38,591 bases of DNA from Bacteroidaceae bacterium (GTDB taxonomy: Bacteria; Bacteroidota; Bacteroidia; Bacteroidales; Bacteroidaceae): the NCBI GenBank assembly GCA_017483665.1, contig JAFUVM010000081.1:1-38591 (forward strand). Direction: 5' to 3'. This document shows, piece after piece, positions 13,280 to 24,366 of the stretch. Below the pieces are notes generated by a model, which was not told the DNA's origin, did no database searches, and saw only the letters and a list, made by a program, of their open reading frames with translations. Numbering within the stretch: the stretch's first letter is position 1; every line of letters starts with the position of its first letter. A program made the position numbers and the translations under genes.

Positions 13280-16225
13280 ATGTTTACGTTCATCAGACTT
13301 AGTCAACAGAGAGGAAAGAGATTCACGACCGTACTGCTCTCGGCCTTGGTTTGCTGCCTATGGTGCACCAGCTGTCAGGCACAGGCAGAAGAGACCACGC
13401 TGCTCGAGACGAAGGAGTTCGCCAAGCCTTCCATGCCTTGGCGCCCCATTCCGCTCTGGTTCTGGAACAACACACAGATCAGCGAGTCGGAGCTTGTCCG
13501 CCAGCTCCAGCAAATGGTGGAGACCGACGGCTACGGCGGGTGTGCCATCCTGCCCTTCGGCGGCGGGTTCCGCCCGGGCTACCTGTCCGACGACTACTTC
13601 AAGCTCTACGGGGCAGCCATCGCCAAGGCGCGGTCCCTGGGAGCCCACATGTCCATCTACGACGAGTACGGCTTCCCCAGCGGCAGCATGGGCGCCATCA
13701 ACGGCTCGGGCGTGACCACCTTCATGAACAACCACCCGGGGCACACCGTCAAGCGACTCGACAAGACGGAGTACCGCGTGGGCAGCGGTGCGACTTTCGA
13801 CAGGCAGCTCTCCCTCAGCGGGAAGCTGATGGCACTTGTGGCCTGGAACATGAACACGAAGGAGATCGTTCCCCTGCGCGACAACTACGACGAGGCGACG
13901 GGCCGTGTGACGTGGACTGCGCCCAAGCAGAGCGGCTGGCACGTGATGGTGTGCCAGTGCGTAGTGGACGGCGACCCGAACGTGGACTACCTCTCCGGCG
14001 AGGCTGTCAGCCTGTTTGTGCAGGACACACATGCCACCTACTACCGCCGCTTCGGCGACCACTTCGGCGGGACCATCGTCTCGACGTTCTTCGACGAGCC
14101 CACCATGTACCGCGCTCAGGGACGCATGTGGACGAACGACTTCAACGAACAGTTCGAGAAGCGCTACGGCTTCTCGCCCGAGATGCTCTACCCTGCCCTC
14201 TGGTACGACATCGGCGCACAGACGGCACGCGCCCGTAACCTGCTCTTCGGCCTGCACTCGACGCTCTACAGCGAAGGCTTCATGAAGACCATCTGCGAAT
14301 GGGCCACGGAGCACGGCATCCTGACCACCGGCCACCAGGATCAGGAAGAGATAGCCAACCCCACCAGCGTGGCAGGCGACCTGATGCTCGTCGGCAAGCA
14401 CCTCACCATGCCCGGCATCGACAAGATAGGCGGCGGACGCCCCACCGAGGACTTCTACAAAGTGGTGTCCTCGTCGGCCAACAACTGGGACAAGACCTAC
14501 GTGATGTCCGAAACCTACGGAGCCATGGGCAACATTCCCGTCGAGAAGCTCTATCAGGTAGCCATCGAGCAGTACACCAAGGGCATCAACCACCTCATCC
14601 CCCATGCCGTCTGGTACAACGACCGCGACGTCACCTTCCTGCCTGAGCTCTCGTGGCGCAACCCGCTCTACAACGCCGACCTGCCCGCGTTCAACGCCTT
14701 CCTCTCGCGCCTGAACTACATCCTGGCACGTCCGGGACGGCACGTGGCCGACGTCGGCGTGCTCTACCCCATTCAGACACAGTACGCCGGGCACAGGCTC
14801 GACGGGCCGAAGGGCTACTACGAAGGCGGCGTCGACGTGGAGGGAACCGACTATCCGCAGATATCGCACTACCTCACCGACGACCTCGGCATCGACTTCA
14901 CCTATCTCCATCCCGAAGTCCTCGACGACCGCTGCACCGCAGCCGACGGCCGCTTGAACATGAACAACACGGTGAACCACGAACACTTCTCCGTCATCAT
15001 CCTGCCCGGCGTGAAGGTCATCTCGCTAAGCAATCTGAAGAAGATAGAAGAAGCCTGGCAGCAAGGCGTCAGGGTCGTCTTCACCACGCAATGCCCCCAA
15101 CTGGCAGCCGACCGCGAAGACGCCGACCAGGAGGTGCAGGACATCGTTCGGCGCATGCTCGACGCCACGGAGAACAAGGCGTACTTCCTGCCCGCACCCT
15201 CGGCCGAGTCGCTGGCAGAAGTCATGGACGCCTGCCTGCCCGACCGCGACGTGCAGTTCTCCGGCGGCACACATCCGTTCAACTACATCCACAAGGTTGT
15301 GGACGGGCACGATGTATGGCTCTTCGGCAACATCGACGACACGTCCGCAACAAATACAATACGGCTAAAGACATCTGCTGCTCAACTCTCGTTGCTCGAC
15401 CCTCATACGGGGCAGGTAACAGCACTCCAGACCCCCTCCAACTCCCCCCAAAAGGGGTTCTCCCTCACCCTGCGCCCGAACCAGTCGGTGTTCCTCGTCG
15501 ACGATGCCCTGCTCCTGAAGAACGGCACAGTCGACGGCCCCGTGGACGAACGTCTTACCTACACCATAGAGATGCAGGCAAAGATAGAACAACTCTCGGC
15601 AGGCGTCTGCTTCTCCATCGCCGACCAGCAGAACTACTACATGTGGCAGTTCAATGCCTCCGACCCGCAGCATCCCCGTCTGCGCCCCCACCAGTGGCTC
15701 GGAGGCAGCGCGTCCCTGCTCGGGGAAATCAACCTGCCCGCCGAGGCGGACATACAGGCCGGGCACACCTTCCGCATAAAGCTTGAGATAGAGGACGAGA
15801 CGTACGTCAAGACTTACATCAACGACGTGCTCGTCGACGAACGGAGCGGCCGCTTCAAGTTCGGCAATGTCGGTTTCCGCCAGGCACACGACGACGCCTA
15901 CGGGAAGGCGGAAACGGCAAGCTACGACGATGTCCTCATCAGCGTCCGCACAGGAGAACGCACCCGCAACGTGGTCTTCTCGGAGGACTTCTCCGCCTCG
16001 AACCCCTTCTCTGCCGGCACCATCGCAGACGGCTGGCTGAGGGTAGAGGGACAGATGTCGCACGACATACTGGCCTGGCTCCGCGAAGTCCCCGATGCCG
16101 TCAGCCTCGCCCCAGCCACTTCCGCCAAAAGCGAGAGCCGATACATGCTCGACGGCACTCCGGCCCCCCGCCACGCCTCCGGCATCATCGTCCGCAACGG
16201 GAAGAAATACATGACAAGGAAATAG
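13280..16225 (+). CDS. GH106-like alpha-L-rhamnosidase, putative lipoprotein
   Basis: A 981-residue secreted glycosidase. The N-terminus has a hydrophobic signal ending at SALVCCLWCTSC, compatible with a lipobox (Cys about 33), so the enzyme may be surface-anchored. The catalytic part (about 50-620) carries the GH106-type pattern RPIPLWFWNN, GGCAILPFGGGFRPGYLSDDYF, YDEYGFPSGSMG and TFFDEPTMY, expected to form a TIM barrel cutting terminal rhamnose. A beta-sandwich (about 755-870) follows and is clearly related to the N-terminal domain of the next gene product (both contain MWQFN, RPH.W and VGFRQ/VGTRQ.HD). The C-terminus (SGIIVRNGKKYMTRK) resembles sorting tails. Residues about 717-730 (TPSNSPQKGF) are encoded by a palindromic repeat element. 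The exact substrate linkage is not deducible. Confidence 0.82.
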   Translation: MFTFIRLSQQRGKRFTTVLLSALVCCLWCTSCQAQAEETTLLETKEFAKPSMPWRPIPLWFWNNTQISESELVRQLQQMVETDGYGGCAILPFGGGFRPGYLSDDYFKLYGAAIAKARSLGAHMSIYDEYGFPSGSMGAINGSGVTTFMNNHPGHTVKRLDKTEYRVGSGATFDRQLSLSGKLMALVAWNMNTKEIVPLRDNYDEATGRVTWTAPKQSGWHVMVCQCVVDGDPNVDYLSGEAVSLFVQDTHATYYRRFGDHFGGTIVSTFFDEPTMYRAQGRMWTNDFNEQFEKRYGFSPEMLYPALWYDIGAQTARARNLLFGLHSTLYSEGFMKTICEWATEHGILTTGHQDQEEIANPTSVAGDLMLVGKHLTMPGIDKIGGGRPTEDFYKVVSSSANNWDKTYVMSETYGAMGNIPVEKLYQVAIEQYTKGINHLIPHAVWYNDRDVTFLPELSWRNPLYNADLPAFNAFLSRLNYILARPGRHVADVGVLYPIQTQYAGHRLDGPKGYYEGGVDVEGTDYPQISHYLTDDLGIDFTYLHPEVLDDRCTAADGRLNMNNTVNHEHFSVIILPGVKVISLSNLKKIEEAWQQGVRVVFTTQCPQLAADREDADQEVQDIVRRMLDATENKAYFLPAPSAESLAEVMDACLPDRDVQFSGGTHPFNYIHKVVDGHDVWLFGNIDDTSATNTIRLKTSAAQLSLLDPHTGQVTALQTPSNSPQKGFSLTLRPNQSVFLVDDALLLKNGTVDGPVDERLTYTIEMQAKIEQLSAGVCFSIADQQNYYMWQFNASDPQHPRLRPHQWLGGSASLLGEINLPAEADIQAGHTFRIKLEIEDETYVKTYINDVLVDERSGRFKFGNVGFRQAHDDAYGKAETASYDDVLISVRTGERTRNVVFSEDFSASNPFSAGTIADGWLRVEGQMSHDILAWLREVPDAVSLAPATSAKSESRYMLDGTPAPRHASGIIVRNGKKYMTRK
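15430..15466 (+). repeat. Palindromic element inside the rhamnosidase gene
   Basis: The sequence is a variant of the family (GACCCCCTCCAACTCCCC followed by CCAAAAGGGG). It is read in frame as TPSNSPQKGF between two beta strands of an accessory domain (VTAL and SLTLRPNQSVFLV). It corresponds to the TLSNSPLK peptides in the genes at 25758 and 36303, read in the same orientation and frame. Confidence 0.7.
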
Positions 16226-16286: not shown

Positions 16287-18824
16287 ATGCGAGGAAAGAA
16301 AATTGCTATGCTGCTCTTGGCGCTCATCGTCTGCAGCATGAATGCGTGGAGTTACAGGATTACCGACAACTACACCATCGAGAGTAAGTTCAAGATCAAC
16401 GCCATTGGCGCCGGCATCGCCTTCCGTGCCTACGAAGGCTTCGGCGGACAGATCTGCATGTGGCAGTTCAATGTGGGCGTCGACGGCACAAAATCGCTCT
16501 TCCGTCCCCACGACTGGAAGGTGGGCGGCATTCTGCTCGCCGAGATTAACACAGCCGACAAGGGCGTGGCACTGAACACCACCGACTGGTTCGTCACGAA
16601 GATTGTCATCACGAACGACGGCCAGCACGCCGACACCTACCTGCGCCGCGCAGACCAGGCTGAGTTCGTACAGATTGACTCACGCGACGGCAACTTCCGC
16701 TTCGGCCTGGTCGGCACACGTCAGGACCACGACGGCGACACCAACGAGTCTGCCAGCTACGACTACTTCAAGGTGACTGCCAACGAGACCGGCGAAGTGC
16801 TCTACAGCGAAGACTTCAATGCCACGAACGGCAACTGGAGGAACGACCCCGTCTGGAACGAGGCCGAAGGCACTCTGACCACCGAGGGACGCAACCTCAG
16901 CGAAGTGAAGTACTTCCCCAACAACATGTTCCTGGATGCCATCGACATGCACTACACCGTAGAGGCCGACATGACCATCGAGAACGGCTACGCTTCCCTT
17001 ATCTTCGGTCTGACCGAGAGCGGCAGCAACTACATGTGGCAGATTTCGCCCAACTACTACAACGACACCTCCGTCAGCACCTACTACCACCTGGACAACG
17101 GCAACGAGTCCTGGAAGGCACATGCAGGCGGTCCGCGCTATCCCGACTACGAAGCCATCGACTTCTGGGGCGAGAAGCGCCACGTGATGATTGAGGTAGA
17201 GGCCAACGTCGTCAGGACCTACATCGACGGCAAGCTGGAGGAAACCTTCACACAGTGCGACATGACCGACCTCGCCCTGCTCAACCCGGGCAAGATGGGC
17301 ATCCGCGTTGACGCCAGCAACGGCGTGGTTCACGAAGTCTACATCGACAATGTGAAGCTGACAGAATACGACAAGGAAGGCAACGCCACGGTCGTAATGG
17401 AGGATGGCTTCGACGGCGGCGTGGCTCACTACTTCGAGCTGAGCGGCAAGAACGCCACCTATGCCCAGGTGGTCGACGTGGACGGAGACTACGCTCTCTA
17501 CATCAACTGCGACGGAAGCGTGGACAAGAGTGCCAAGGTACGCCTCATCCAGACCGACGACTACGTCTGCACACACAACTACGAGAACGGCATCTGCACC
17601 ATCTGCGGCGAGTATGAAGAGCCCGGCTACGACGCCGACCTCAGCGCCTACACCATCGGCAACCTCGGTCAGCTGATTCGCTTCTCACAGATTGTCAACG
17701 GCGGCGAACAGGGTGCCAACGGCTCTCTGACTGCCGACATCGACATGGAGTACAGCGACAAGTTCCAGCCCATCGGCCTGAACAACGACGGCTCTTGGCA
17801 GCGTCCCTTCATGGGAACCTTCTACGGCAACAACCACGTCATCAGCAACCTCTTCGTCAAGACTGAGTGCGAGGGCGGTCTCTTCTCCCGCACACGTGGC
17901 GGCAAGATCTACAACCTCGGCCTCGTGAACGGACACATCGAGAGCACAGCCAACCTGCGCTGCGGCGCCATTGCCGGTGAGCATCACGACAATGCTCAGA
18001 TGGTGGACTGCTACGCTCGCGGCACGTTCGAGTTCGTTACCACGTACGCCCAGAAGGATGCCGTAGCGGGCGAATGTGCCGGCGGCCACTTCGTGAACTG
18101 CTACACCACGCTGCCCAAGATGTCATGCGACTATCCTATGGGCGGTGACATGACGAACAGCTACGAAGGCGTCACAGCAGAGCAGGGTGCTACGGGCGAG
18201 ATTGCCTACAAGCTGGGCACATCCTTCGGCCAGAACATCGGCACCGACGCTTATCCCGAACTCGACGGCGAGCAGGTTTACTTCATTGGCGAAGACGGCT
18301 ATGCCACACTCTACGACACCACAACAGGCTACGTGCTCAACGGCGACGCCAAGGCTTACGTTGCAACACTGCAGAAGACATGGCTCAACACCGCTGAGAT
18401 TGCAAATGTTCCTGCCGGTACTCCCGTCATCCTGAAGGGCACCTACTACAACAAGCTGGCTCAGGACCTGCCTGCCATCAACGTTGCCAACGACCTGAAG
18501 GGTACCGAGACAGCCACCGAGGCAGACGGCACAATGTACGTCCTTGCCAAGCCCGAAGGCGAAAAGATCGGTTTCTACAAAGCTGAAGGCACTATCGCTG
18601 CAGGCAAGGCATACTTCCAGAGCGCAAGCGGCGTGAAGGCATTCTACTTCGACGGCGACGATGCCACAGGCATAAATGAAGAATTAAGAATGAAGAATGA
18701 AGAATCAAAGGGCGAGGAAGCTATTTACAACCTGGCCGGTCAGCGCCTCGGGAAGATGCAGAACCGAAGGTCGACATATGTCAAGGGCATCAACATTATT
18801 GGTAACAAGAAAATTCTGAAATAA
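16287..18824 (+). CDS. Secreted LamG-like/GLUG-like protein with C-terminal sorting tail
   Basis: An 845-residue exported protein with a signal peptide (KIAMLLLALIVCSMNAWS). Residues ~22-180 form a concanavalin/LamG-like domain homologous to the accessory domain of the preceding rhamnosidase; a second such domain spans ~180-370. A short zinc-ribbon-like motif CTHNYENGICTICG lies near 427-440. GLUG-like beta-helix sequence (GTFYGNNHVISNLFV, GGLFSRT) follows to about 620, then a conserved module (ILAKPEGE-type, VLAKPEGEKIGFYKAEG) and the tail YNLAGQRLGKM...KGINIIGNKKILK. The tail resembles type IX secretion or Prevotella sorting tails. In-frame heptamer repeats encode NEELRMKNEE just before it. 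The stop TAA overlaps the ATG of the next small gene. Function is probably glycan binding or adhesion (inference). Confidence 0.8.
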   Translation: MRGKKIAMLLLALIVCSMNAWSYRITDNYTIESKFKINAIGAGIAFRAYEGFGGQICMWQFNVGVDGTKSLFRPHDWKVGGILLAEINTADKGVALNTTDWFVTKIVITNDGQHADTYLRRADQAEFVQIDSRDGNFRFGLVGTRQDHDGDTNESASYDYFKVTANETGEVLYSEDFNATNGNWRNDPVWNEAEGTLTTEGRNLSEVKYFPNNMFLDAIDMHYTVEADMTIENGYASLIFGLTESGSNYMWQISPNYYNDTSVSTYYHLDNGNESWKAHAGGPRYPDYEAIDFWGEKRHVMIEVEANVVRTYIDGKLEETFTQCDMTDLALLNPGKMGIRVDASNGVVHEVYIDNVKLTEYDKEGNATVVMEDGFDGGVAHYFELSGKNATYAQVVDVDGDYALYINCDGSVDKSAKVRLIQTDDYVCTHNYENGICTICGEYEEPGYDADLSAYTIGNLGQLIRFSQIVNGGEQGANGSLTADIDMEYSDKFQPIGLNNDGSWQRPFMGTFYGNNHVISNLFVKTECEGGLFSRTRGGKIYNLGLVNGHIESTANLRCGAIAGEHHDNAQMVDCYARGTFEFVTTYAQKDAVAGECAGGHFVNCYTTLPKMSCDYPMGGDMTNSYEGVTAEQGATGEIAYKLGTSFGQNIGTDAYPELDGEQVYFIGEDGYATLYDTTTGYVLNGDAKAYVATLQKTWLNTAEIANVPAGTPVILKGTYYNKLAQDLPAINVANDLKGTETATEADGTMYVLAKPEGEKIGFYKAEGTIAAGKAYFQSASGVKAFYFDGDDATGINEELRMKNEESKGEEAIYNLAGQRLGKMQNRRSTYVKGINIIGNKKILK
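18669..18758 (+). repeat. 90-bp module, copy 1 (89/90 identical to 23919-24008)
   Basis: This block encodes the end of the C-terminal module including the heptamer-coded EELRMKNEESKGE and YNLAGQRLGKM. It differs at only one base (18718 A versus 23968 G) from the block at the end of the 1615-residue protein gene, although the rest of the genes is much more diverged. This points to recent duplication or gene conversion. Confidence 0.9.
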
Positions 18825-18976
18825 TGAAGTACATTAAACCATCTATCGAAATCAGCGAGGCACAGGCAGCACAGATGCTGGCCGAGAGCCTCATCATCAG
18901 CGACACAACGGTCGACGGCAGCAAAGCCCTCACCAAGGAAGACAACAGTTGGGACATCTGGGACGAAGAAGAATAG
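18824..18976 (+). CDS. Small acidic peptide, translationally coupled to the preceding secreted protein
   Basis: A 50-codon gene whose ATG overlaps the upstream stop by one base (TAATG at 18822-18826), a classical stop-restart coupling. The peptide starts MKYIKPSIEISEAQAAQ, has a central AQMLAESLIISDTTVDG and an acidic Trp-containing tail SWDIWDEEE. No signal peptide or membrane segment is visible. It is clearly paralogous to the 51-residue peptide at 24077, which also follows a giant secreted protein; the residues from QMLAES to the end are almost identical. I recall many short Bacteroidales hypothetical peptides with a K-Y-I-x-P start and an acidic tail, but know of no assigned function. It could be a chaperone-like or regulatory partner, a peptide precursor, or a cargo peptide; none is shown. 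A hairpin terminator follows. Confidence 0.85.
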   Translation: MKYIKPSIEISEAQAAQMLAESLIISDTTVDGSKALTKEDNSWDIWDEEE

Positions 18977-19001
18977 TAAGTCCTAGCTGAACAATCCTTT
19001 C

Positions 19002-19055
19002 ATACCCCTGAAGGCTTTTTGGGAACGCCCAAATTGCCCTCAGGGGTATCTTTAT
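19002..19055 (+). terminator. Rho-independent terminator after the small peptide gene
   Basis: ATACCCCTGA (19002-19011) pairs with TCAGGGGTAT (19040-19049), with inner pairing GGC/GCC and TTGGG/CCCAA, followed by CTTTATT. It ends the transcript carrying the LamG-like protein and its small partner, before a new promoter at 19109. Confidence 0.8.
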
Positions 19056-19108
19056 TGCCTCCAACACATATCACTTTTACCCAAAAAGAAGAAAAAAAGG
19101 TGAAAACG

Positions 19109-19139
19109 TTTGTTATGTGTGTGAAAAACTGTAAATTTG
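19109..19139 (+). promoter_or_regulatory. Bacteroidetes-type promoter for the giant secreted protein gene
   Basis: TTTG at 19109-19112, a 19-base spacer and TAAATTTG at 19132-19139 match the consensus. The start would be near 19145 and the leader of about 60 bases ends with TTTCCC before the ATG at 19206. Confidence 0.7.
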
Positions 19140-19205
19140 TAGGGCGCAAACATGAAAAACTAACTAATACAACAACTATTTTATTAACCTTACAAACAGT
19201 TTCCC

Positions 19206-22200
19206 ATGAAAAAAAGTTTTCTATCTTTGCTTCTGCTTGCCCTGGTGGGCATAGCAGGAAACCTGAAGGCTTTGGCTCAGGAGGTGCCTGAACCAACCGC
19301 TCAGTGGAAATTCGACAACCCCAGCGACCTGATGGCTGCCAAGGTGGGCAGTCTGCAACTGGTTCCTGCCGTGGCAGGCAACAACACCATTTCGACTGCC
19401 ACTGTCGCCGAGGCTGGCATCGAAGCAGCACAAGGTCCGACGAAAGGAAGCAGTGCCATCTTCGTGCCTGCTGCCTCTGCTCTGAAAGTGGTACGCGCCG
19501 AAGGTGCCGCATCTTCCACTTCCTTCACATTCATGATGGACATTATGGTGCCCGATGCCTACCCCTACAACGGTCTGTTCCAGACAAATCAGGACAACGC
19601 CAACGACAGCGAATTCTGCATCCACGCAAACAAGATTGGTGCAAACGCCGTGGGCGGCTACTATGGTGGCATCAGAAGCGGAATGTGGTATCGTGTAGCC
19701 CTGACCAACAGCAACGGTTCGGTCAAGCTCTTTGTGAACGGCACTAAACTTGCAGACTACGAAACGTCTGACGCTCGCTGGGAGATTGACCCCACGTTCT
19801 ATCTCCTCTGCGACAACGACGGCGAGAAGACCGACACATACATCTCCGAGATTTCATTCTGGGAAACACCCCTCACCGACGAGCAGGTGGCAGCAATGGA
19901 GTTCACGCAGGACGTTCCCTGGATTACCAGCCTAAGCCAGATAAAGGAAGGCGACCAGTTCCACATCGTCAGCGACCGCATCGTGTTCGCCGGCACCAAG
20001 ACAGGCAAGCTCAAAGCTATGGCCTCTGCCCAGCCGGGCTTCTCCGTCAACTGGGGCGACCAATATGTTTATTGGGGCGACCTCGACAATGAGGCTGACG
20101 GCTTCATTTGGACTGCCGAGAAGGCAGGCGACCAGTGGGCTTTCCTCAACAAGGAGAAGAACCAGTACCTGGGCAACATGAATACCAACGAGGCTGACGT
20201 CATCTTTTCCGAGACGCCCGTGGGCTACACCCTCACCGACCTCCGCGAGGGCGAAGGCTGCTTCTACATGGCAAACGAAGAGTCTGAGCATTCACTGCAC
20301 GTTCAAGGCTATCTGATGGGAACACGTCCCAACAACAGTCTGGCAAAGCAGGAGGTGGGCGACGACGACTATCGCGACGATGTAGCCACAGCAGGCTATC
20401 CCGGCCGCTGGAGGCTGATAAAGCTCAATGCCGACGAACCCGTGGAAACCGGAACAAAGATTGAGACAGCTGCCGACTTCGAGGCTTTTGCACAGGCCGT
20501 CAGCGATGGCGAGACCGACATCGATGCCTATCTGGCTGCCGACATCGAACTCACCGGCAACATCATGGTCGGCAACAGCACCAACCAGTATGCCGGCACC
20601 TTCGACGGCAAGGGATACACCATTACCTATAATTATACAGATGTAGAAGCGCACAGCGGTCTCTTCCGTAACCTTAACGGCGCAACCATCCGTAACCTGT
20701 TTGTGAAAGGCACTGCTGTGGTGCAGGGCATTCACTTCGGTGCTCTGGTGGGCGATGCAGCCGGCGATGTGCTGATAGAGAACGTAGTGACGGATGTCGA
20801 CATCACCGGCGACCGCAGCGGCGTAACAGGCGACGGCGGCATGGCTGGATATCTCAACGGCAACATCACCTTCAACAACTGTGCTACGCTTGGCGCAATG
20901 GGCAACTCCGGCACCTCGATGTACTGCGGCTTCGTGGCATTTGCTACGGGCACCTCACTTTCCACCCTTAACAACTGCTACACTGCATGCAGCCTGACGG
21001 AAGGCACTGGCACCAGCTACTGCTACACATTCTGCCGCGGAACTATTGCCACCAACAACTGCTACTACGTCAATGTCATAGGCGAAGCACAGGGTACACA
21101 GATTACCGAGGACCAGATAGCTTCGGGTGAGCTTTGCTACAAGCTGAACGGCGACCAGAGCGAAATCAACTGGTATCAGACGCTCGGCGAGGACGCTCAG
21201 CCTGTTCCGTTCGATTCGCATGCACAGGTCTACGCCAACGGCGAACTGAAGTGCGACGGCACGAGCGCTGGCGGCGAGCTTGCCTATAGCAACTCTGCAA
21301 GCTCGGTGGTTCCTCCTCACACCTTCGAAGGCGGCTGGTGCACCGTCTGCGGTACATGGAACACCAATTATCTGACAGCCGACAGCGAGGGCTTCTACAA
21401 CATCAGTTCGGCAAACGACCTGGCCTGGATTGCTGAATTCATAGCACAGGGCAATACTGACGTCAACATCAAGCTGACAGCCGACATCGACCTGACGACA
21501 AGCAACTTCCCCGCCACCATGATTGGCAACAGCGGCAAGCAATATGCCGGCACCTTCGACGGACAGGAACATACCGTTAAATACAGCTACAACATCACCA
21601 GCAGCTACTGCGGACTGTTTGCTTACGTCAACGGCGCTACCATCCGCAACCTCCGCGTGGAAGGCGATGCTGTCTCTACAGCCATCCACTTCGGCGCCCT
21701 CATCGGCCAGGCCAACGGCACCGTGCTCGTGGAGAATGTTGTGACGGATGTCGACATCACGGGCAAGTCCAGCACTGGCGTACAGGGCGATGCCGGCATG
21801 CTGGGCGCTAACTACGCCAACATCACCTTCAACAACTGCGCTACCTTGGGCGAGATGGGCTACGAAGGCAGCTCGATGTACAGCAGCTTCTCCGGATGGT
21901 CCAATGGCACATCTAATACAATCCTGAACAACTGCTACACACTCTGCAAGCTCACCGAAGGCACAGGCACAGGCAACTGCTTTACCCTGACACATGCAGG
22001 CGGCCCGGTTGAACTCAACAACTGCTACTACCTCAACGAGATTGGAACGGTACAGGGAACGGCTATTGCCGAAGACCTTGCTTCCGGAGCATTCTGCTAC
22101 AAGCTGAACGGCGACCAGAGCGCCATCGGCTGGTATCAGACGCTTGGCAAAGACGCACTGCCTGTTCCTTTCGCTTCCCATGCAAAGGTTTATGCTAACG

Positions 22201-24053
22201 GCACGGTTCGCTGCGACGGTGCAGAGCTGCCCGACAGCCCTGTCGTATACAGCAACACCGAAGGCCAGACCGTGAAGCCAGACCATCAGTATGGTGCAGA
22301 CGGCATTTGCACAGTCTGCGGCAGCCCGAAGCAGAATGCCGACGGCTTCTACGTCATCGACAACGCAGCAAAGCTGAACTGGTTCGCCGGGCAGGTTGCA
22401 TCCGGTGCAACAGCAATCAATGCAGTCCTTGCTGCTGACATCGACCTCTGCACAAGCGAATATCCCGACCTGATGATTGGCAACTCCAACAACATGTTTG
22501 GCGGCATCTTCGACGGACAGGGACACACCGTCACCTACAGCTACTCCATCAGCAGCAACTACTGCGGCCTGTTCTCTTACGCAAAGAACGCCACCATCCG
22601 CAACCTGATTGTGAAGGGCGATGCTGTTGTGACAGCTATCCACTTCGGTGCCCTCATCGGACGCGGCGAAGGAACGATTCTCGTGGAGAACGTCATCACC
22701 GATGTCGACATCACCGGACAGCGCAGCAGTGTGACCGGCGACGGCGGTATGATTGGCGCCCTCTATGCCAACATCACCTTCAACAACTGTGCTACCCTGG
22801 GCAAGCTCGGCTATTCCGGCAGCTCGATGTACAGCGGCTTCTCCGGCTATTCGTCCGGCACCTCTTCCGCAACCTTGAACAACTGCTACACCATCAGCGA
22901 ACTCACCGAGGGAACAGGCACAGGCAGCTGCTTCACCTTCATCCACGGCAGTGGCGCGAAGGTCTTCAACAACTGCTACTATGTCAACGCCATCGGCACC
23001 GTGCAGGGCACAGCAGTCGAGGCTGACGAGGTTGCCAACGGTTCGCTCGCTGCCAAGCTGGGAGCAGGTTGGTATCAGAACATCGGCGAGGATGCCTATC
23101 CCGTTCTGGACAAGACTCATGCTGTTGTGAAGGAGATTAGCGAAGCCGGCTATGCCACGATGTACATCCCCGATGCAGTGGAGATTCCCGAGGACGTTGA
23201 GGTCTACACCGGCAGCTTCGAAGAGACATGGCTGAAGCTCGATGCAGTAGAGGGAACCGTTCCCGCTTGGGAGCCTGTCGTACTGAAGGGCGCTCCCGGC
23301 ATCTATAGCTTCATGCCTGCCGCAGCTTCCGAGATGAGCACAAAAGTTGTCTTCGCAGACCTTGGCTTCGAGAATGCAGCAGACCTCACCACATTCAACG
23401 TTGGCGGTCTGACCTTCAGCTTCGACGGCGGCGGCAACACCAACACTCCGAAGTACTACACCGGTGGCTCTGCTGCCCGCATCTATGGCAGCAACAGCAT
23501 GACCATCTCCGCAGCTGCTCCTATCAGCAAGATTGAGTTCACCTTCGGCGGCACCAACTATGCCTTCAAGAGCGGCGGCTACGAGTTCAGCAATGGCAGC
23601 TATGCCCTTGCCACCAAGACATGGACCGGCAGCGCTGAGAGCATAACCATCAAGAACACGACCACCAGCCAGTGGCGCATCGTCAGCATGACCATCACCT
23701 ACGAAGGCACAGCTCCCAACATCGCAGGCAATGTCCTGAAGGGTGCCAAGGAGGACATCGAGGCTGCAGGCAAGTACATCCTGGCTAAGCCCGAAGGCGA
23801 AGCAGTCGGCTTCTACCTGGCCGAGACAGGCAACATCAAGGCAGGCAAGGCTTATCTTGAAGTTTCCGAAGCAGCAGATGTTAAAGCCTTCCTCTTCAGC
23901 GACAGCGACGACGCCACGGGCATAAATGAAGAATTAAGAATGAAGAATGAAGAATCAAAGGGCGAGGGAGCTATTTACAACCTGGCCGGTCAGCGCCTCG
24001 GGAAGATGAAGAAGGGCATCAACATCGTAGGCGGCAAGAAGATTCTGAAGTAA
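19206..24053 (+). CDS. Giant secreted protein with LamG domain and three beta-helix repeats
   Basis: A 1615-residue exported protein: signal peptide (SLLLLALVGIAGNLKALAQ), a LamG/concanavalin-like domain (about 25-240), a ricin/actin-crosslinking-like stretch (to about 410), then three large repeats of ~318 residues (about 418-1310) with GLUG-like beta-helix sequence (each contains YAGTFDG or GGIFDG, ATIRNL, IHFGAL, ENV.TDVDITG, NITFNNCATLG and LNNCYT). Zinc-ribbon-like motifs HTFEGGWCTVCG and HQYGADGICTVCG separate the repeats. A further beta domain and the conserved ILAKPEGE module precede the tail YNLAGQRLGKMKKGINIVGGKKILK, shared with the gene at 16287. Likely a surface or secreted adhesin/glycan-binding protein; no catalytic residues recognised. 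It has its own promoter, and a small peptide gene follows after 23 bases. Confidence 0.8.
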   Translation: MKKSFLSLLLLALVGIAGNLKALAQEVPEPTAQWKFDNPSDLMAAKVGSLQLVPAVAGNNTISTATVAEAGIEAAQGPTKGSSAIFVPAASALKVVRAEGAASSTSFTFMMDIMVPDAYPYNGLFQTNQDNANDSEFCIHANKIGANAVGGYYGGIRSGMWYRVALTNSNGSVKLFVNGTKLADYETSDARWEIDPTFYLLCDNDGEKTDTYISEISFWETPLTDEQVAAMEFTQDVPWITSLSQIKEGDQFHIVSDRIVFAGTKTGKLKAMASAQPGFSVNWGDQYVYWGDLDNEADGFIWTAEKAGDQWAFLNKEKNQYLGNMNTNEADVIFSETPVGYTLTDLREGEGCFYMANEESEHSLHVQGYLMGTRPNNSLAKQEVGDDDYRDDVATAGYPGRWRLIKLNADEPVETGTKIETAADFEAFAQAVSDGETDIDAYLAADIELTGNIMVGNSTNQYAGTFDGKGYTITYNYTDVEAHSGLFRNLNGATIRNLFVKGTAVVQGIHFGALVGDAAGDVLIENVVTDVDITGDRSGVTGDGGMAGYLNGNITFNNCATLGAMGNSGTSMYCGFVAFATGTSLSTLNNCYTACSLTEGTGTSYCYTFCRGTIATNNCYYVNVIGEAQGTQITEDQIASGELCYKLNGDQSEINWYQTLGEDAQPVPFDSHAQVYANGELKCDGTSAGGELAYSNSASSVVPPHTFEGGWCTVCGTWNTNYLTADSEGFYNISSANDLAWIAEFIAQGNTDVNIKLTADIDLTTSNFPATMIGNSGKQYAGTFDGQEHTVKYSYNITSSYCGLFAYVNGATIRNLRVEGDAVSTAIHFGALIGQANGTVLVENVVTDVDITGKSSTGVQGDAGMLGANYANITFNNCATLGEMGYEGSSMYSSFSGWSNGTSNTILNNCYTLCKLTEGTGTGNCFTLTHAGGPVELNNCYYLNEIGTVQGTAIAEDLASGAFCYKLNGDQSAIGWYQTLGKDALPVPFASHAKVYANGTVRCDGAELPDSPVVYSNTEGQTVKPDHQYGADGICTVCGSPKQNADGFYVIDNAAKLNWFAGQVASGATAINAVLAADIDLCTSEYPDLMIGNSNNMFGGIFDGQGHTVTYSYSISSNYCGLFSYAKNATIRNLIVKGDAVVTAIHFGALIGRGEGTILVENVITDVDITGQRSSVTGDGGMIGALYANITFNNCATLGKLGYSGSSMYSGFSGYSSGTSSATLNNCYTISELTEGTGTGSCFTFIHGSGAKVFNNCYYVNAIGTVQGTAVEADEVANGSLAAKLGAGWYQNIGEDAYPVLDKTHAVVKEISEAGYATMYIPDAVEIPEDVEVYTGSFEETWLKLDAVEGTVPAWEPVVLKGAPGIYSFMPAAASEMSTKVVFADLGFENAADLTTFNVGGLTFSFDGGGNTNTPKYYTGGSAARIYGSNSMTISAAAPISKIEFTFGGTNYAFKSGGYEFSNGSYALATKTWTGSAESITIKNTTTSQWRIVSMTITYEGTAPNIAGNVLKGAKEDIEAAGKYILAKPEGEAVGFYLAETGNIKAGKAYLEVSEAADVKAFLFSDSDDATGINEELRMKNEESKGEGAIYNLAGQRLGKMKKGINIVGGKKILK
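20461..23130 (+). repeat. Three coding repeats of about 955 bp
   Basis: The marker ATCACCTTCAACAACTG recurs at about 20866, 21823 and 22774, giving periods of 957 and 951 bp. Units cover roughly 20461-21360, 21370-22330 and 22340-23130, the third being slightly shorter at its end. They encode successive beta-helix-type modules in one frame and are prone to recombination or assembly collapse. Confidence 0.9.
23919..24008 (+). repeat. 90-bp module, copy 2
   Basis: Partner of the block at 18669-18758, with one difference in 90 bases. It includes the heptamer run GAATTAA GAATGAA GAATGAA GAATCAA read in frame as EELRMKNEES. Confidence 0.9.
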
Positions 24054-24076
24054 GTACCAACTAAAACACAAACGAC

Positions 24077-24232
24077 ATGAAACGCAATTATATTTGTCCT
24101 TCTGCCTGCATAGAAGAGGCACAGGCAACACAGATGCTGGCCGAGAGCCTCATCATCAGCGACACAACAGTGGACGGCGGCCAGGCCCTCACCAAGGAAG
24201 ACACCGGCTGGGACATCTGGGACGAAGAATAG
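24077..24232 (+). CDS. Small acidic peptide, paralogue of the one at 18824
   Basis: A 51-codon gene starting 23 bases after the giant protein gene. The sequence begins MKRNYICPSACIEEAQATQ and continues MLAESLIISDTTVDGGQALTKED, ending WDIWDEE. The last ~33 residues are almost the same as in the peptide at 18824, while the N-terminal 15-17 differ and here include two Cys (C7, C11). Conservation at both protein and DNA level in the core and tail suggests selection or recent conversion. No signal peptide. Position immediately downstream of a secreted protein with the same C-terminal tail implies a functional pairing (inference). Function unknown. Confidence 0.82.
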   Translation: MKRNYICPSACIEEAQATQMLAESLIISDTTVDGGQALTKEDTGWDIWDEE

Positions 24233-24267
24233 TCGACACCGGCTGGAGCATCTGGGACGAGGAATAA
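24200..24267 (+). repeat. Tandem duplication of the small peptide's 3' end
   Basis: The 33-base block 24200-24232 encoding DTGWDIWDEE-stop is repeated at 24235-24267 as DTGWSIWDEE-stop, offset by 35 bases and therefore in another frame. The copy differs at four bases and keeps its own stop (TAA instead of TAG). The downstream copy has no start of its own. Confidence 0.85.
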
Positions 24268-24326
24268 CCCGCGCCCGGCCTGCTCCTGCCCGTCGGCAGG
24301 AATAGGCAACAGCTAATCGCAGCAAG

Positions 24327-24366
24327 GGCTGCAGGTCTGAGACATCAGGCTTGCAGCCTTTTTTTT
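24327..24366 (+). terminator. Rho-independent terminator after the giant protein/small peptide unit
   Basis: GGCTGCA (24327-24333) pairs with TGCAGCC (24352-24358); an inner CTGA/TCAG pair extends the hairpin. Eight T residues follow (24359-24366). A strong intrinsic terminator for the upstream unit. Confidence 0.88.

Follow-up and report, generated by a model that had tools for sequence, protein, structure and literature searches.

Two small genes, encoding peptides of 50 and 51 residues, stand directly behind two genes for large secreted proteins (here called cargos) on a 38,591-nucleotide contig of a gut Bacteroidaceae bacterium with relatives in the ruminant gut (GCA_017483665.1, JAFUVM010000081.1), the whole of which is the window analyzed here (contig C16 of a 3.06-Mb genome that is 78% complete). 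The peptides belong to a family, its pairing with cargos is general in the loci collected, and a core segment is shared between peptides and some cargos; these results are solid. We propose, with a probability of roughly 0.42, that the peptides are precursors made of a leader and a core, that the core docks on the cargo encoded next to it, and that a gene trio on another contig of the genome acts on them in trans. Each peptide would act as a dedicated precursor for the large secreted protein whose gene lies immediately upstream: residues 1 to ~22 (KKxYxxP...MLA) would form a leader suited to a PqqD-like recognition element (RRE) of ribosomally synthesized and post-translationally modified peptides (RiPPs), and the remainder (AxSLxIxxxTVDGxxALTKED..WDIWDEE) would be a core supplying a further beta strand to the cargo's C-terminal-proximal beta domain. 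The trio, encoded on contig C143 (RRE, signal-peptidase-like protease, and HprK-like kinase), would serve the genome's peptides by binding the leader, cleaving near A-x-S, and perhaps phosphorylating the conserved Ser, in the manner of the Bacillota linear polyphosphorylated peptides (LPP); docking would help the cargo fold, be secreted, or assemble. Computation shows that the family is coding and is paired with cargo, domain, and tail, that the domain can hold a loop resembling the core, and that the leader geometry, the trio of genes, and genes of the type IX secretion system (T9SS) are present.

A coding peptide family behind tail-bearing cargo genes

With a single peptide as query, 14 places were found in this genome; the profile built from these raised the number to 19 (E up to 10), with 17 reaching 6e-7 or better, and 20 peptides were seen in total. 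Matches were present in 56 of 61 genomes of the genus (E 1e-3), in 35 of 201 genomes of the family (1e-5; 120 of 201 at 1e-3 with the broader profile A10), and in 3 of 295 genomes of the order (1e-5), the own genome counted. Over 603 pairs with dS below 1.2, drawn from 81 peptides, the median ratio of nonsynonymous to synonymous rates (dN/dS) was 0.21 and every pair lay below 1, and third codon positions differed 11439 times, vs. 5945 and 4351 at the other positions. Because dN/dS is low across pairs and third-position differences are in excess, the peptides are real genes and form a family under purifying selection. This evidence rests on the relatives, since the window pair (dN/dS 0.51 when compared alone) partly reflects the recent duplication or conversion described below. 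Most paralogous cores of this genome have VDGxxALTKED and WxIW in common. The peptide matches no Pfam family up to E 1, has no credible NCBIfam match (best 0.12), and has no PDB sequence match below E 0.99; no Rfam family reached the gathering score in the window stretch.

An initial annotation, made from the sequence of the window alone, had proposed both small frames, and they stand where it placed them (18824-18976, 50 aa; 24077-24232, 51 aa), as do their coupling to the cargo genes, by a TAATG overlap for peptide 1 and a 23-base gap for peptide 2, and the large exported proteins ahead of them (845 and 1615 aa, with N-termini that look like signal peptides by eye). That the peptides themselves have no signal peptide was borne out: a simple hydrophobicity cutoff was passed by 5 of 205 family members, against 67 of 76 cargo N-termini, the 205 peptide-cargo pairs used here and below having been selected by regular expressions for peptide and tail. 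The likeness of the two peptides (80% identical, 39 invariant columns) turned out to be wider than annotated, as it spans the DNA of linker, tail, and peptide. An identical 49-base block lies between domain and tail in both cargos (18669-18717 and 23919-23967), and a 40-base identical block then follows in the tail. Since DNA identity over linker, tail, and peptide amounts to 84% (256/305 aligned bases), part of the likeness of the two units is due to a recent duplication or conversion of the 3′ end. A terminator had been assigned to each unit; the strong stem after unit 2 holds, the site after unit 1 is a weak one of 5 pairs (19035-19048), and a scan across the region gave 5 sites, fewer than the 9.6 in shuffled sequence. 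Conserved frames and a tie to secreted proteins, the two points on which the annotation hinged, were both found in the loci examined. The features of the two units are as follows.

16287..18824, + strand: cargo gene 1, 845 aa, open reading frame (ORF) with a signal-peptide-like N-terminus (judged by eye); no Pfam or NCBIfam match up to E 1
18264..18674, + strand: beta domain of cargo 1, of the kind that goes with the peptide (~140 aa family-wide); domain hidden Markov model (HMM), independent E (iE) 4.5e-50, coordinates by arithmetic
18720..18821, + strand: C-terminal tail of cargo 1, YNLAGQR...GINIIGNKKILK, from the tail profile
18824..18976, + strand: peptide 1, 50 aa, from its frame; its start codon overlaps the cargo 1 stop (TAATG)
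18824..18880, + strand: putative leader of peptide 1, residues 1-19, with YxxP; boundary provisionally placed before the conserved A-x-S
18881..18973, + strand: putative core of peptide 1, AESLIISDTTVDGSKALTKED...WDIWDEEE, from loop pattern, hhalign, and AlphaFold; boundary provisional
19206..24053, + strand: cargo gene 2, 1615 aa, signal-peptide-like N-terminus (by eye); Pfam Laminin_G_3 and Peptidase_M26_N
23112..23339, + strand: extra, partial beta-domain copy of cargo 2, upstream of the main one; domain HMM iE 8.5e-18, profile positions 6-81, coordinates by arithmetic
23490..23924, + strand: main beta domain of cargo 2; domain HMM iE 8.8e-32, coordinates by arithmetic
23970..24050, + strand: C-terminal tail of cargo 2, YNLAGQR...GINIVGGKKILK, from the tail profile
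24077..24232, + strand: peptide 2, 51 aa, from its frame; 23 bases 3′ of cargo 2
24077..24139, + strand: putative leader of peptide 2, residues 1-21, from motif geometry; boundary provisional
24140..24229, + strand: putative core of peptide 2, AESLIISDTTVDGGQALTKED...WDIWDEE, from loop pattern, hhalign, and AlphaFold; boundary provisional
24324..24361, + strand: terminator-like stem of unit 2, 17 pairs with a T-run

After the stop codon of peptide gene 2, positions 24235-24266 hold a tandem near-copy of its final 32 bases (29/32 identical) in another frame.

A contig scan for the peptide alone, taking the best 80 of 112 relatives, yielded 79 loci from uncultured Bacteroidaceae, Prevotellaceae, and Bacteroidales, the titles of which often name ruminant gut samples. 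In 79 of 79 the peptide lies behind a gene with a YNLAGQR...GKK-type tail, recognized by regular expression in 52, as YNVAGQ variants that the expression missed in 26, and by eye in L251. Loci L154-L183, from the family and order searches, have such a tail in 29 of 30 cases, L166 being cut by the contig end just behind VLVK-stop. The spacing between cargo and peptide varies between a 4-base overlap and 383 bases, with more than one frame represented, so fusion of cargo and peptide by read-through or frameshift was rejected. In L007, L009, and L012 a repeat-like stretch (ATGACCCATA..CC.ATTTGTCACCTCCCC...) lies between the tail gene and the peptide gene, and it extends the frame in two of them.

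The tail profile gave 100 places in this genome at E up to 10, and 82 tail ORFs were kept by regular expression from their surroundings, C139 and C143 excepted. A peptide lies directly 3′ of 19 of the 82; L078, L088, L105, and L116, where regular expressions had called peptides that by eye are not family members, were counted as peptide-less. The 20th peptide (contig C12, L087, minus strand) stands one gene behind a domain-bearing tail gene, the intervening frame being arabinofuranosidase-like by eye. The tail as determinant of the peptide was rejected, since no peptide immediately follows 63 of the 82 tail genes. No Pfam family is shared by any two of the 19 peptide-linked cargos, and the 42 peptide-less tail genes examined out of 63 include BspA-type repeats (8), CotH, sulfatases, glycosidases, and peptidases among others; this contrast in cargo class is suggestive only.

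The cargo beta domain, predicted docking, and likely export

The peptide goes more closely with the beta domain than with the tail. The annotation had tied it to the tail, and the tail does precede the peptide throughout the 79 loci; the domain ahead of the tail is the stronger link. A model of the last 190 residues, trained on 13 of the 19 peptide-linked cargos, aligns to all 19, to L090 and L093 only from position 40 or 45. A tail-free domain model, built from 60 cargos of other genomes (iE 1e-5 or less), matches 21 of the 82 tail genes here, 15 with and 6 without a peptide (the C12 case, L087, among the six); a peptide is thereby carried by 15 of 21 domain-positive vs. 4 of 61 other tail genes (Fisher p 1.5e-8), by a model that was trained on peptide-linked cargos only and so favors the link. 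Among the 59 loci L125-L183, whose genus loci overlap the genomes used for training, 55 gave a peptide and an upstream frame, and the domain is present in 49 of these 55 cargos at iE 1e-5 or less; two of the 49 belong to another family of the order. At 1e-3 the domain is found in 193 of the 205 unique pairs. Four domain-negative, peptide-linked cargos of the own genome (L075, L090, L100, and L269) have peptides with GxDxDG instead of the common core, and because GxDxDG peptides pair with cargos missed by the general domain model, core and domain may diverge together.

AlphaFold predicts a confident beta domain, with a predicted local distance difference test score (pLDDT) of 92-97 at residues 21-130, for which Foldseek gave no PDB fold at E 0.001 or better. 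Weak PDB sequence matches were obtained for the tail (7jvi, E 0.0019; 4kca, 0.04) and, poorly, for the second half of the domain together with the tail (8bbl, 0.0089). Eight cargo C-terminal stretches had no credible Pfam or NCBIfam match apart from one subthreshold TIGR04183.

Six cargos have an additional loop in the domain that resembles the central part of the peptide (best HMM E 0.002 among 160 proteins). When 101 genomes were searched with one loop segment, 18 matching places came from 15 genomes, this genome not among them; the loop is present in 12 and absent from four, and L292 and L296 are without a row. The 16-residue pattern L.[ILV]....[VI][DN]G..AL.[KNQ] occurs in 55 peptide contexts, 13 loop contexts, and nowhere else in 3.46 million six-frame residues of loci that had been collected around peptides, tails, or the domain. 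By hhalign, the loop aligns with residues 23-42 of the peptide profile (E 8e-7, probability 91.6). All 14 loops have the A, L, and K of the pattern, and at least 90% have its L, V, and G, residues that are conserved in the peptides as well.

Alone, window peptide 2 (34 sequences) is modeled by AlphaFold at pLDDT 60 with a helix at 8-26 and no strand. When the L184 peptide, 82% identical to it, is fused to the domain and tail of its own cargo, a strand is predicted at 24-32 (block pLDDT 87, next block 75), the tail having pLDDT 44-50; this model was computed from 60 rows, 12 of them covering the peptide (vs. 34 for the peptide alone), with the stop read as Q. The start of the predicted strand (24) coincides with the start of the shared core (23). 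On balance, we think it probable that the core docks on the beta domain of the cargo, as this model predicts. In the donor-strand complementation of pilus subunits, a short segment completes the beta domain of another chain. The docking proposed here would do the same; the domain differs in having no listed pilin match and no PDB fold at the E 0.001 level.

The genome encodes a T9SS (SprA 2659 bits, PorV 421 bits, and a plug domain). SprA was found in 155 of 201 family genomes and in 78 of the 82 that are peptide-positive at E 1e-5 (p 1.2e-7, confounded by phylogeny), and 77 SprA-positive genomes are without a peptide at that threshold. In three of the four SprA-negative, peptide-positive genomes, PorV was scored, with 419 bits in G363, 425 bits in G479, and only 22 bits in G318. 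The tails resemble the T9SS type A sorting domain (TIGR04183) in their C-terminal position and in a partial profile match of 2 of 18 tails (14.0 and 18.9 bits), both of which lie below the curated cutoff of 23 bits, the other 16 having no match; none therefore qualifies as a type A sorting domain, and for this reason export of the cargos by T9SS is put as likely only. In two reports (PMC12618676; PMC9143113), type B T9SS cargos likewise have a dedicated partner gene directly downstream, some cargos being orphans. Their partner is a PorP/SprF-like shuttle, PorP being an outer-membrane beta barrel, whereas here it is a 50-residue peptide without a signal peptide; moreover, the sole T9SS tail model touched by the tails here is that of type A.

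Leader geometry and a gene trio on contig C143

Near the N-terminus, 79 of 79 and 14 of 14 peptides (93 of 93 tested) have a YxxP motif whose Tyr is followed by an Ala at +17 and a Ser at +19; in this genome, 17 of the 20 peptides have A-x-S and 18 have the Ser. The peptides have the YxxPx-hydrophobic leader motif of LPP-type RiPPs; at the position after YxxPx, 47 of 79 and 11 of 14 carry a residue of the published set LVIFA, and most of the others carry Met. The proposed border between leader and core, before A-x-S, adjoins the starts of both the loop likeness (23) and the predicted strand (24).

LPP, as described in their report (PMC13381572), are Bacillota RiPPs with the precursor motif YxxPxVLxHQxIxFETxxS, in which leader cleavage in vitro by an archaeal-type signal peptidase needs the RRE and an HprK-like kinase phosphorylates core Ser 3; the studied core begins AQS, where the peptides here have AxS. 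The likeness takes in the short precursors, the conserved YxxP N-terminus, and the variable C-terminus, as well as discrete RRE and archaeal-type signal-peptidase genes that lie together (PMC13381572); the conserved Ser downstream, one residue off the LPP spacing, and the adjacent gene for a putative HprK-like kinase may extend it. Unlike those of LPP, the precursors here are scattered behind secreted-protein genes and not within the cluster, they belong to Bacteroidota, and their core is predicted to bind a co-encoded protein.

PqqD (RRE) has one match in the genome, at E 3e-16 and over the Pfam cutoff, on the 9.1-kb contig C143. The gene order there is a gene with a WYTLDGRR-type tail, a small signal-peptide-like protein, a Walker-A protein, a signal-peptidase-like protein, PqqD, and a transporter/plug frame. 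The signal-peptidase-like protein matches TIGR02228 at E 4e-4, below the cutoff, and Pfam S24 just over the cutoff, and it has SMRP and HRI boxes, which we take to be catalytic. RRE and archaeal-type signal peptidase are thus encoded together on C143, as in LPP; the in-cluster precursor of LPP was not found, there being no peptide profile match in the 9.1 kb. The trio was seen in no other locus examined, these loci having been chosen around peptides, tails, or the domain and covering little of each genome. Processing of the peptides by the trio is a tentative proposal, held at slightly less than even odds. Right behind the PqqD gene, at 6991-8925 of L388, a single open frame encodes both a glycine-transporter-type membrane domain and a T9SS plug domain.

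No description of cargo-paired peptides behind T9SS cargos was found in the titles and abstract openings of the open-licence papers listed, in the parts consulted of PMC9143113, PMC12618676, PMC10352776, and PMC13381572, or in the family libraries. The peptides are also without one of the features that define LPP, a precursor within the cluster; if processing were confirmed, they would be a far variant of LPP-type RiPPs. Peptide-linked cargos are mostly without a known domain, and a peptide together with a dedicated domain offers a direct handle on their folding, export, and anchoring. If the leader is real, machinery for peptide maturation would act on protein secretion, which would widen the scope of such pathways and give RRE/kinase/peptidase trios outside Bacillota a function to test. 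A longer shot, which we hold to be rather doubtful, is that Bacteroidota possess a RiPP-type pathway for structural parts, in which one RRE/peptidase/kinase set matures ~20 precursors per genome and the cores, perhaps phosphorylated, complete or lock the beta domains of T9SS surface proteins.

The precursor reading weighed against alternatives

Several observations count against the precursor reading, beginning with the trio. PqqD is unspecific, matching in 3 of 14 controls (Bacillus subtilis, Bacteroides ihuae, and Sulfolobus acidocaldarius), where SprA matches in 0 of 14; the Walker-A protein has weak HprK-related matches (ScmC, E 3.9e-6; TIGR04352, 2.6e-5), both below the cutoff, and no Pfam hit; and trio and peptides lie on separate contigs of one genome. 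No NTP transferase or MsbA-like exporter, both of which belong to LPP clusters, was among the six C143 frames run against Pfam, the contig ending there. The leader geometry also deviates: the L067 and C12 peptides have neither residue of A-x-S, L093 has Cys for Ala, Met follows YxxPx in 30 of 79 and 2 of 14, and the Tyr-to-Ser spacing, 19 here, is 18 in LPP (PMC13381572).

Further such points concern the domain and the docking. Ten peptide-less genes match the last-190-residue model from profile position 55 or earlier, and the domain model, by its training set, favors the link. A peptide was detected behind 9 of the 12 loop loci, and because 11 of 14 loop cargos (L253 and L254 included) also have one behind them, the loop does not replace the peptide. 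The docking evidence is one fused model with output that gives no contacts, and six of its 60 alignment rows contain the core-like loop, which may have helped the docking. Couplings between domain and core (191 pairs) reached a maximum of 1.71 vs. at most 1.31 in ten global shuffles; within-clade shuffles gave the same top-10 and top-30 values, with a single pair (domain 103, peptide V31) above them, and since they reach these values the coupling shows nothing beyond clade-level co-inheritance and is counted as no support for docking. If a cytoplasmic peptide folded the domain, Sec export of the cargo would be impeded unless the peptide were exported as well, and we know of no export route for such a peptide. 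The cut site, the phosphorylation, the exit of the core from the cytoplasm, and the benefit of docking to the cargo are the steps that we infer.

The annotation had offered three ideas for the peptides, a helper, a feedback regulator, and a precursor. A mix of helper and precursor is favored by the YxxP/A-x-S geometry and by the likeness of the core to the loop together with the predicted docking; the regulator found no support. The alternative that survives best, though we consider it unlikely, is that the whole peptide, unprocessed, binds the C-terminal domain of the nascent cargo in the cytoplasm and keeps it unfolded or passes it to Sec or T9SS, its conserved N-terminal and Trp-rich C-terminal ends binding a common factor. 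The lack of a signal peptide would fit such a helper, as would the one peptide per cargo, a start overlap or a gap under 6 bases in 36 of the 205 pairs, and the mean net charges of the acid peptide (−6.6) and the basic tail (+4.9) in the same pairs. The conservation across 33 diverse members, in which Y, P, A, and S are invariant, one W is nearly so, and the middle is variable, and the predicted docking are likewise in its favor. A helper leaves the fixed YxxP...AxS geometry unexplained, however; docking by an added strand would favor folding of the domain instead of holding it back; and a generic chaperone would presumably not need ~20 genes.

It is distinctly improbable, in our estimate, that domain, tail, and peptide merely spread together as a cassette by recombination, with the peptide acting elsewhere and the loop a relic of one insertion. 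The high DNA identity of the window cassettes (84%, with exact blocks of 49 and 40 bases) and inter-protein couplings no higher than within-clade permutations agree with such hitch-hiking, and the loop does look by eye like a single event in one cargo group. The link, however, extends to further genera and to a second family whose cargos differ, and the loop keeps the peptide-conserved residues while its flanks vary.

A signaling or antimicrobial RiPP, the core being exported for communication or competition and its co-transcription with secreted proteins being incidental, would account for the leader geometry, the trio, and the many paralogs; we give it little credence, as the shared VDGxxALTKED and WxIW of most paralogous cores are presumably not the diversity of weapons and the loop shared with the cargo points to the cargo. 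Least credible of all is a feedback regulator, in which free peptide signals that the cargo has departed and adjusts expression or quality control accordingly: that the peptide is co-translated with the cargo and has a two-ended anatomy would be in keeping with such a role, but no target is indicated by the Pfam, NCBIfam, and PDB searches of the peptide or by the search of the stretch for RNA families.

Upstream of the two units, a gene for a GH106-type alpha-L-rhamnosidase (13280-16225) ends 61 bases 5′ of cargo 1 and may be part of the same operon.

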